Shown here: piece by piece, positions 1,779 to 4,630 of the stretch
Position numbering within the stretch: the first letter of the stretch is position 1
Layout of the letters: the number at the start of each line of letters is the position of its first letter
Source of the DNA: an uncultured Erysipelotrichaceae bacterium
Lineage (GTDB): Bacteria > Bacillota_I > Bacilli_A > RF39 > UBA660
Assembly (NCBI GenBank): GCA_902780585.1
Contig: CACZGA010000008.1
Coordinates: 1-39,576 of the forward strand
DNA: 39,576 nt
Reading direction: 5' to 3'
Position numbers and translations under genes: made by a program
The notes under the pieces: generated by a model
Told to the model about the DNA's origin: nothing
What the model saw: the letters and a program-made list of their open reading frames with translations, nothing else
Databases searched by the model: none

Positions 1779-2570
1779 TTATACATGTTTATATATATCT
1801 TTGATCATATCTCTTACGTCTTTATGATAATCTATTTTGGCTTTTTTCTCTTTTTTCGCTATATAAGTCCATTCTACTTTTTCAGGTATTTGAATACTAT
1901 TATTTTTTAATAATTCTACGTTTTGATATACTTCTTCGGTATTACCTTCTATTAGTACTTCATTTGCTTTAGTTATTATAATATGTGATGTATACTCATA
2001 TAAAATGTTTGGATTACTGCTTACTATAATAATAGTTTTATTATATTGTTCTACCATTTTTTCTAATAATACCATTAGTCTTTTTTCGTTTTTTAAATCT
2101 AAATTATTTAAGAATTCATTTATAATTATTACTTCAGGATTTGACATAAGAGCTATACTTAATTGAAATAGTTTTTTTTCAGATGTAGACAGGTCTTTTA
2201 CACTTCTAGTTAGACATGATATGTCTAAGCCTACTATTTTTAATGAGTCTATCATTTTTCTTTTAGGATCTTTTAGAACCATTCTTTTTCTTCTCATTTC
2301 TTGATACATGCACTCATATACTTTATAGGCATTTAATCTACTATCAAGATATTTATTTATAATACCTATGTTTCTTTTTAGATTATTTATATCTGTTTCT
2401 GATAGATCTTTTTTATTGATTGTTATTTTACCTTTTTTATTAAGTTTTAGTTTCAATATCTCTATTAATTCTAATCTATCTGGGCCTGTTATACCATTTA
2501 TTTTGTTTTCCTTAATAGTGAAAGAGTAGATACCTTTATTTTGATGATAGTCTGTTACCTTTATTTCCAT
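1779..2570 (-). CDS. EcfA2-like ABC protein, catalytic motifs lost
   Basis: 263 residues with the position and length of EcfA2, the second ATPase of energy-coupling-factor vitamin transporters. The nucleotide-binding signatures have decayed. Around residues 26-38 the Walker A slot reads GITGPDRLELIEI with no GK[ST]. The signature region is LSTSE (127-131). Walker B is VIIINEF, with Asn151 where Asp is expected, although Glu152 remains. The H-loop slot reads SSNPN with no His. It probably cannot hydrolyse ATP (inference from motifs). The start codon overlaps the end of the preceding ABC gene by 10 nt, so the two are translationally coupled. The frame is full length, so it is not an obvious pseudogene. 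No EcfT gene follows. Confidence 0.75.
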   Translation of the reverse strand: MEIKVTDYHQNKGIYSFTIKENKINGITGPDRLELIEILKLKLNKKGKITINKKDLSETDINNLKRNIGIINKYLDSRLNAYKVYECMYQEMRRKRMVLKDPKRKMIDSLKIVGLDISCLTRSVKDLSTSEKKLFQLSIALMSNPEVIIINEFLNNLDLKNEKRLMVLLEKMVEQYNKTIIIVSSNPNILYEYTSHIIITKANEVLIEGNTEEVYQNVELLKNNSIQIPEKVEWTYIAKKEKKAKIDYHKDVRDMIKDIYKHV

Positions 2571-3331
2571 AACATATCCACCATCCTATTCTTATCTAGT
2601 TCTATCTCTTTTATTAAGTCATAATCTTTTAGTTTTACTGATAAGTCTACCATAAATGGTAGTTTTAAACCTAATTTGTTAATGATATTATCTTTTTCTA
2701 AAACATCAAGTGGTTTACCTGATAAGCATATTTTTCCTTCACTAATAATATAAAGAAAATCTGTTTCTAAACTTTCTGTTAGATTGATTGTTGAATAAAT
2801 AATGGTCATAGGATGCTTACTTTGAAATGTTTTTAAAAACTTTAATATTTTTATAGTATCTTGTTCTTCTAAAACAGTACTTAATTGATCTACTAGTAAT
2901 ATTCTAGGTTTTTGGCATAGCGCTATTACTAGATATGAAAGTAGTAGTTCCTTTTCGGACATAGTACTAAAAGCTTTCTTAATTATTCTTTTACAACCTA
3001 ATCCTTTTAATATTTCTTCTATATCTTTTTTATCTGGATTGTATAAAGATATTTCTTCTTCTAAAGTACTTTCCTCAAAGTAATATTCTGTTGGGATAAT
3101 ACATTGTACTAAAGATGAATATTCGTCTATTTTGTGTTCTATTATATCTTTTTCTAGGACAGTTATATTACTATTTGTTATTATTTGTCTATCTAATATT
3201 CTTAATAGTGTAGTTTTGCCACAATTATTTGGACCTGATAGAGTTACAAATGAATTATCTTCTATTTCTAAAGACATATTATTAAATAGATTCCAATAAG
3301 AAAAATTTTGAATAGAAATAATATTATTCAT
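2561..3331 (-). CDS. EcfA1-like ABC ATPase, partly degenerate
   Basis: 256 residues from the ATG at 3331, chosen for its strong GGGGAGGA site 7-8 bases upstream; the frame is open further upstream without an RBS. EcfA1 position and fold. Walker A survives (GPNNCGKT, residues 33-40) and Gln76 could serve as the Q-loop. The signature is MSEKE (124-128) instead of LSGGQ. Walker B RILLVDQL has Gln149 in place of the catalytic Glu, and the H-loop slot reads STINLT with no His. The C-terminal LGLKLPFMVDLSVKLK resembles the EcfA tail. It may bind but probably not efficiently hydrolyse ATP (inference). A partner EcfT and S-components would have to be encoded elsewhere. Confidence 0.75.
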   Translation of the reverse strand: MNNIISIQNFSYWNLFNNMSLEIEDNSFVTLSGPNNCGKTTLLRILDRQIITNSNITVLEKDIIEHKIDEYSSLVQCIIPTEYYFEESTLEEEISLYNPDKKDIEEILKGLGCKRIIKKAFSTMSEKELLLSYLVIALCQKPRILLVDQLSTVLEEQDTIKILKFLKTFQSKHPMTIIYSTINLTESLETDFLYIISEGKICLSGKPLDVLEKDNIINKLGLKLPFMVDLSVKLKDYDLIKEIELDKNRMVDMLWK

Positions 3332-3364: not shown

Positions 3365-3390
3365 AAAAGCCAACTATTAGCTGGCTTTTT
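3365..3390 (-). terminator. Terminator after the SDR gene
   Basis: Eight-pair hairpin AGCCAGCT..AGTTGGCT (3368-3386, one G-U pair, loop AAT) that contains the SDR stop codon. It is followed by only TTTTAAAATT, so the U-tract is weak and readthrough into the ABC genes is possible. Confidence 0.5.
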
Positions 3391-4141
3391 TCTTTTGAAC
3401 TTTATAAATCATACGTAATAGAAATTTATCTGATACAAATCTACTAAAGAATTTTGCACATTTCATTTTCATACCTGGAATGATAAGCATTTTCTTTTTA
3501 AACATATTGTCTATTGCATATTTCGCTACATATGAACTTTTTAGTGGTTTTACTGCAAATTTTACGCCTGCTACATTATTAAAATTTGTTTCTACAGGTC
3601 CAGGGCATAATACTGATACATGTACTTTTTTCTTTTTGTGTTTTTCTTCATAATAAAGAGCTTCTGATAATTGATATACATAAGATTTGGTAGCATAGTA
3701 TGTACTCATTAGTGGCCCTGGTTGAAAGGCCGCTGATGAAGCTACATTTAAAATATATGTATCAGTATCTCTATTTTCCATATCTCTTGCTAAGAATTTT
3801 GTTAAGATATGTACAGCTTTAATGTTTGTATTAATCTGTTCTAAGTCTTTATTAATATCGGTATCTGTTAAATATCCAAAATCCCCAAAACCTGCGTTAT
3901 TTATTAGTATATCAATGTTTTCATTTTTTGCAAGTACATATAACTCTTTTACTCTTTGTTCATTGGCTAAATCTGCAACTATAATGGTTACTTTAGTAGG
4001 TAATTGTTCTTGTATTTCTTCTAGTTTTTCTTTATTACGTGATACTAATATTAATTCACACTTTTTAGTTGCTAAATATCTAGCCATATCTAAACCAATT
4101 CCCGAAGACGCTCCGGTTATAAGTGCTTTCGTAATAATCAC
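3377..4141 (-). CDS. Short-chain dehydrogenase/reductase
   Basis: Classical SDR oxidoreductase of 254 residues. The N-terminal Rossmann motif TGASSGIG (9-16), NNAG near residue 83, the catalytic Ser in NVASSA and the YYATK catalytic Tyr-x-x-x-Lys are all present. The substrate cannot be told; close look-alikes are annotated as generic SDR or acyl-reductase. The start is a GTG at 4141 only 3 nt after GGAGG, a tight spacing; the true initiation codon could be one codon later (ATT, rare). The gene sits between rplQ and the ABC pair, a place normally without a gene, and is bracketed by terminators, so it looks like an inserted free-standing unit. Confidence 0.88.
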   Translation of the reverse strand: MIITKALITGASSGIGLDMARYLATKKCELILVSRNKEKLEEIQEQLPTKVTIIVADLANEQRVKELYVLAKNENIDILINNAGFGDFGYLTDTDINKDLEQINTNIKAVHILTKFLARDMENRDTDTYILNVASSAAFQPGPLMSTYYATKSYVYQLSEALYYEEKHKKKKVHVSVLCPGPVETNFNNVAGVKFAVKPLKSSYVAKYAIDNMFKKKMLIIPGMKMKCAKFFSRFVSDKFLLRMIYKVQKKKAS

Positions 4142-4159
4142 CTACCTCCACTTATATTA

Positions 4160-4167
4160 TATCAAAG
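4160..4167 (-). promoter_or_regulatory. Possible -10 element for the SDR gene
   Basis: A consensus TATAAT on the minus strand (within GATATAAT) lies about 20 bases before the SDR start and just after the rplQ terminator. No convincing -35 hexamer is seen at 17 bases. Confidence 0.4.
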
Positions 4168-4187
4168 TATTTTTTCTATTTCCACAC

Positions 4188-4214
4188 AAAAAAAAACAAG
4201 TATTGTATACTTGC
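4188..4214 (-). terminator. Terminator of the ribosomal superoperon
   Basis: Directly after the rplQ stop, the minus strand reads GCAAGTA then TACAATACTTG and an unbroken run of nine T. The stem CAAGTA/TACTTG has loop TACAA. It marks the end of the 13.8-kb rpsJ-rplQ transcript. Confidence 0.75.
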
Positions 4215-4216
4215 TT

Positions 4217-4630
4217 TTATTCTTCTTCTTTTTTCTTTTTAGTAGTTCTTTTAGCAGTTTTCTTTTCTTCTTTAACTGGTTCTTCTTCTACAACTAATCT
4301 TAGAATAGACATTAAAGAATTATCCCCACGTCTTTCTCCTACTTTTAATATTTGAGTATATCCACCATTTCTATTTTCATAACGTTTTGTTAATTCATTG
4401 AATACTTTATTTACTGCAACTGTGTCGTTATGAAGAAATGCTAGAGCTTTACGACGAGATATTAAATCTCCTCTTTTTCCGTAAGTAATCATTTTATCAA
4501 CAAATTTACGTACTTCTTTGGCTCTTGTATCAGTAGTAGTAATACTCTCATTCATAATTACTTGTTTTGTTAGGGTAGCTAACATACTTCTTCTATGTTT
4601 GTTATCTCTACCTAATTTTCTATATGCCAT
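4217..4630 (-). CDS. rplQ: 50S ribosomal protein L17
   Basis: Large-subunit protein near the exit tunnel, last gene of the superoperon. The N-terminal [20 protein letters not shown] is diagnostic. 137 residues: the usual 115-120 plus a C-terminal low-complexity tail rich in Lys, Glu and Thr (from about residue 113 on), an extension not typical of the family. The ATG has an AGGAGG site and lies 15 nt after rpoA. Confidence 0.97.

Follow-up and report, generated by a model that had tools for sequence, protein, structure and literature searches.

Two adjacent genes on the minus strand of the 39,576-nucleotide stretch of DNA analyzed here (the window), from an uncultured Erysipelotrichaceae bacterium of the RF39 lineage, encode an EcfA1-like and an EcfA2-like pseudo-ATPase that have lost the membrane subunit EcfT and their catalytic residues, keep conserved C-terminal domains, and remain under purifying selection. 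We favor, with reasonable though not strong confidence, the interpretation that the two proteins (A1 and A2) form a non-hydrolyzing, EcfT-independent EcfA1-A2 heterodimer that probably binds ATP at one composite site and acts as a scaffold or switch.

The minus-strand gene order is rplQ, an SDR-family gene (3377–4141), A1 (2561–3331), A2 (1779–2570), truA (1038–1769), rplM and rpsI, and all features described below lie on this strand. A1 is 256 amino acids long when read from the ATG at position 3331, which is preceded by GGGGAGG (an in-frame TTG lies at 3373), and A2 has 263 amino acids. The preliminary description of two adjacent, overlapping, full-length genes in the ecfA1-ecfA2 position holds in coordinates and strand: the two reading frames overlap by 10 nucleotides, and truA starts 9 nucleotides past the A2 stop codon, immediately downstream, where ecfT would usually intervene between A2 and truA. 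The SDR-family gene upstream of A1 is a neighbor in many genera, whether or not they have EcfT; between it and A1, one genus (G132) carries a 311-amino-acid open frame (L003:565-1500) and another (G158) an insertion of ~700 bases (L217, about 3600–4300).

Profile homology, fold and the conserved locus ahead of truA place both proteins in the EcfA family. The best NCBIfam profile matches were EcfA2 (TIGR04521, 8.7e-28) and EcfA1 (TIGR04520, 1.3e-22), with scores of 80–97 bits that lie far below the equivalog cut-offs of 315–330, and a PDB sequence search likewise grouped A1 and A2 with ECF ATPases. AlphaFold models (pLDDT 92.4 for A1 and 84.8 for A2) compared with Foldseek revealed an ABC fold with an EcfA-type C-terminal domain in both proteins, the top matches being EcfA/CbiO chains for A1 and EcfA2/CbiO for A2. 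A different ABC family, which the preliminary description had named as a result that would count against it, was ruled out, as none of the profile, PDB sequence and fold searches returned a better non-Ecf match. An artifact of assembly or contamination (the draft genome has 6.5% contamination) was rejected because 36 of the 39 genus members share the pair at the same place.

The reported loss of catalytic motifs was borne out residue by residue. In A1, the Walker A motif GPNNCGKTT (residues 33–41; 3209–3235) is intact, MSEKE (residues 124–128; 2948–2962) replaces the LSGGQ signature, the Walker B motif ILLVDQ (residues 144–149; 2885–2902) retains Asp148 and carries Gln149 for the catalytic Glu, reading VDQ where VDE is expected, and Ile182 (2786–2788) occupies the position of the H-loop His. 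In A2, the Walker A site reads GPDRLE, a remnant (GPDRL; 2472–2486) without GK[ST], the signature is LSTSE (residues 127–131; 2178–2192), of the LSxxE form retained across the genus, the Walker B region reads IIINE with Asn151 for Asp followed by Glu152 (2115–2120), and Ser185 (2016–2018) replaces the H-loop His. Features of a functional ECF transporter that are missing are the EcfT subunit, the catalytic Glu, the H-loop His and LSGGQ. The earlier wording, catalytically damaged, was right as to the loss of catalytic residues and needs sharpening, since it was silent on the intact Walker A and Walker B Asp of A1, and the pair still has its C-terminal domains and one half-site for nucleotide binding. 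Judged from sequence, one Walker A/B set and the opposing signature motif persist, as in a nucleotide-binding pseudoenzyme, and one composite nucleotide site, made of the A1 Walker A/B and the A2 signature, appears to be left without its catalytic residues.

The same pattern extends to relatives that lack EcfT. Among full-length EcfT-less pairs, A1 conserves Walker A in 47/49 and the Walker B Asp in 49/49 sequences, and has the catalytic Glu in 2/49 and the H-loop His in 1/49, while A2 shows LSxxE in 33/41 (40/59 when all EcfT-less rows are counted) and Walker A in 12/41; the opposite composite site thus seems to be mostly gone in these pairs. Within the window's genus, the A1 motif GxNxxGK is present in 37/37 rows, and the position of the catalytic Glu is variable with Asn the commonest residue. 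Among pairs without EcfT, 1/49 A1 and 2/41 A2 sequences have an NP[D/E]-type motif in the Q-loop, versus 20/49 and 21/52 where EcfT is present. EcfT-bearing relatives are partly degenerate too, the A1 His being present in 31/51 and A1 LSGGQ/E in 25/51. In five EcfT-less genera (G007, G045, G088, G094 and G097), A1 is only about 150–213 amino acids long and its P-loop is missing, so ATP binding cannot be required everywhere; the C-terminal domain persists in these truncated proteins, making it the most persistent part.

The absence of ecfT, with truA coming next, was confirmed with two profiles. Pfam CbiQ (PF02361) had no match in the window's genome and nothing above cut-off among the 39 genomes of its genus, and a family-specific EcfT profile built from 48 sequences had no match in G000 or G013; with both profiles negative in G000 and G013, an EcfT hidden elsewhere in the genome was rejected. 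The S-component search, which comprised PF12822, PF07155, PF07456 and BioY, gave no match in G000, and BioY and PF12822 had none above cut-off in the window's genus. Of the 55 genera that have EcfT, 29 carry a PF07456 (Gx-type) S-component candidate; no EcfT-less genus does. In EcfT-bearing genera, PF07456 candidates adjoin ApbE-like and FMN-binding-type genes (L229-L235), neighbors from which we infer a resemblance to the Listeria S-component EetB; this gene context hints at extracytosolic flavinylation as a possible task of the ancestral ECF module. Separate S-component/ATPase/EcfT-like clusters, distant from the truA locus, were seen in G126 and G092 (L236, L237).

We read the truA locus across about 130 genera of the window's GTDB family, a large group of uncultured, gut-type Bacilli, the genomes searched being mostly fragmented drafts. 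EcfT of at least 225 amino acids stands at the locus in 55 genera, a shortened EcfT-like protein of 187–219 amino acids in which the first coupling-helix motif was not seen in 9 genera, and the pair without EcfT in 58 genera. The shortened proteins (L053:2925-3548, L074, L112, L071, L179, L065, L079, L068, L063, L084) are apparent intermediates between a working EcfT and none. In three sister genera (G027, G066 and G100) the SDR gene abuts truA and the A1, A2 and EcfT genes are all absent, a clean three-gene deletion indicating that retention of the pair is not forced. A concatenated-marker tree implied about 20 changes of EcfT state, 10–12 of them forced by starred, well-supported branches, the exact count being soft because the tree was made with FastTree from many partly filled rows; losses are the natural reading of these changes, since EcfT stands at its usual place in other genera. 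A phylogeny-corrected sign test on independent pairs, underpowered with 6 well-supported pairs, did not reach significance.

Within the genus of the window, 36/39 species have an open A1-A2 pair, with no stop codons or frameshifts across the genus, and total loss of the genes is confined to the three-genus clade and scattered cases. Neutral change of 0.1 substitution per site was computed to create about 8 stop codons in the pair, so that the open frames are beyond chance. In the closest species pairs, dN/dS was 0.18–0.37 for A1, 0.16–0.43 for A2 and 0.08–0.19 for truA. Relative to TruA, A1/A2 diverged only a little more in the absence of EcfT (1.97/1.87) than in its presence (1.73/1.65). The most constrained segments are the C-termini, namely the A1 C-terminal domain (2564–2725), with a near-invariant PFMxDLSVKLxDY and a conserved Trp close to the end, and the A2 tail KIDYHKDVRDMIKDIYKHV (1782–1838), which is near-invariant in the genus while its codons vary synonymously. 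Near-invariant residues (P-F-M-x-D-L-S-V-K-L in A1 and D-x-R-D-I-I-K-D-I-Y-K-H in A2) encoded by synonymously variable codons place the constraint at the protein level, and the same variation rules out an RNA-level or codon-overlap cause, with the exception of the overlap of A1 LWK with A2 MEI, which may in part reflect coupling. Several residues are newly fixed in the window clade compared with EcfT-bearing relatives: R253 (98% versus 0%) and K261 (92% versus 6%) in A2, and V232 (87% versus 0%) and N215 (85% versus 6%) in A1; A2 H262 and A1 D236 are near-fixed in the clade and rare or absent in those relatives. The preliminary description had offered either a retained role distinct from standard ATP-driven uptake of vitamins or very relaxed selection. 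The results support the former, while close-pair dN/dS values of 0.16–0.43, far from 1, and invariant tails with synonymous variation largely exclude the latter.

The motif loss, the faster evolution than truA, the truncations in some genera and the complete loss in the three-genus clade could all be expected of slow reductive decay under relaxed selection, the pair being an incipient pseudogene pair in a shrinking genome. We regard this as improbable, because dN/dS is far below 1, none of 36 species has a stop codon, the tails are invariant despite synonymous variation, residues have become newly fixed, and the pair has been retained across many EcfT losses. More improbable still is that the frames serve only as a spacer or to couple the translation of truA-rplM-rpsI; the tight or overlapping A1-A2 and A2-truA junctions would fit such a role, but codons vary under invariant tail residues, a shortened A1 of 225 amino acids is tolerated in G148, and the SDR gene directly abuts truA in G027, G066 and G100.

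A continuing transport function is unlikely, though a stronger contender than either of these. The pair would then serve a membrane transporter whose unrelated or extremely diverged membrane subunit is encoded elsewhere, a possibility to which the family lends some substance, as its EcfT can be diverged enough for PF02361 to miss G005 and others, and shortened EcfT forms exist; moreover, ECF ATPases can serve several membrane subunits in Listeria (PMC9973259). Against it, the family-specific EcfT profile was negative in G000 and G013, PF12822 and BioY gave nothing above cut-off in the genus and PF07155 and PF07456 nothing in G000, NP[D/E]-type Q-loop motifs are almost gone, and a pair without the catalytic Glu and His should not power transport.

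In the non-hydrolyzing heterodimer that we favor, A1 and A2 would dimerize through their C-terminal domains, which are known to hold EcfA dimers together. ATP would be bound at the single composite site of the A1 Walker A/B and the A2 signature, and with no hydrolysis a stable closed clamp would result, which might serve as a soluble scaffold or a nucleotide-occupancy switch for a partner, not as a pump. No partner of the pair was found. Isolated EcfA pairs without membrane subunits close on nucleotide binding (PMC4820897; PMC10368641), and Glu-to-Gln EcfA mutants lose ATPase activity, the double mutant being trapped closed and ATP-bound (PMC10368641, 8BMS). The engineered ECF module 2EQ (8BMS, PMC10368641) shares with the window's A1 the change of catalytic Glu to Gln, and by analogy an ATP-bound, non-hydrolyzing state would be expected; however, 2EQ is engineered, contains EcfT and has two intact nucleotide sites. 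With the Group II ECF module EcfA1-EcfA2-EcfT (EcfAA'T), which provides its best profile and structure matches, the window's pair has in common the gene order beside truA, the ABC fold and the EcfA-type C-terminal domain, and it differs in having no EcfT and no detected S-component, in lacking the catalytic Glu/His pair and in the destruction of one ATP site. The PhnK/PhnL ABC modules of C-P lyase (PMC9947105) likewise have no transmembrane partner and act on a soluble complex, with PhnK touching PhnL via the PhnK C-terminal domain, but they require ATP hydrolysis in vivo and are not of the EcfA family.

ECF ATPases are textbook transport motors that normally drive vitamin or cofactor transporters. 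In the literature searched, neither the retention of EcfA pairs in the absence of EcfT nor a non-transport role for EcfA was reported. That the pair has been kept by selection after repeated loss of the membrane subunit and of catalytic residues implies a function other than transport. More tentatively, and at somewhat less than even odds in our estimation, EcfA pairs of this family may have had an ancestral second, EcfT-independent function that survived many independent EcfT losses and was refined into a non-hydrolyzing ABC heterodimer acting as a soluble scaffold or switch. Members of the family range from working motor to pseudoenzyme, a natural series on which a non-transport function can be tested. 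RF39 has been described as reduced and auxotrophic (PMC6784871). Where reduced gut genomes carry an 'EcfA' annotation, it should not be taken as vitamin uptake.
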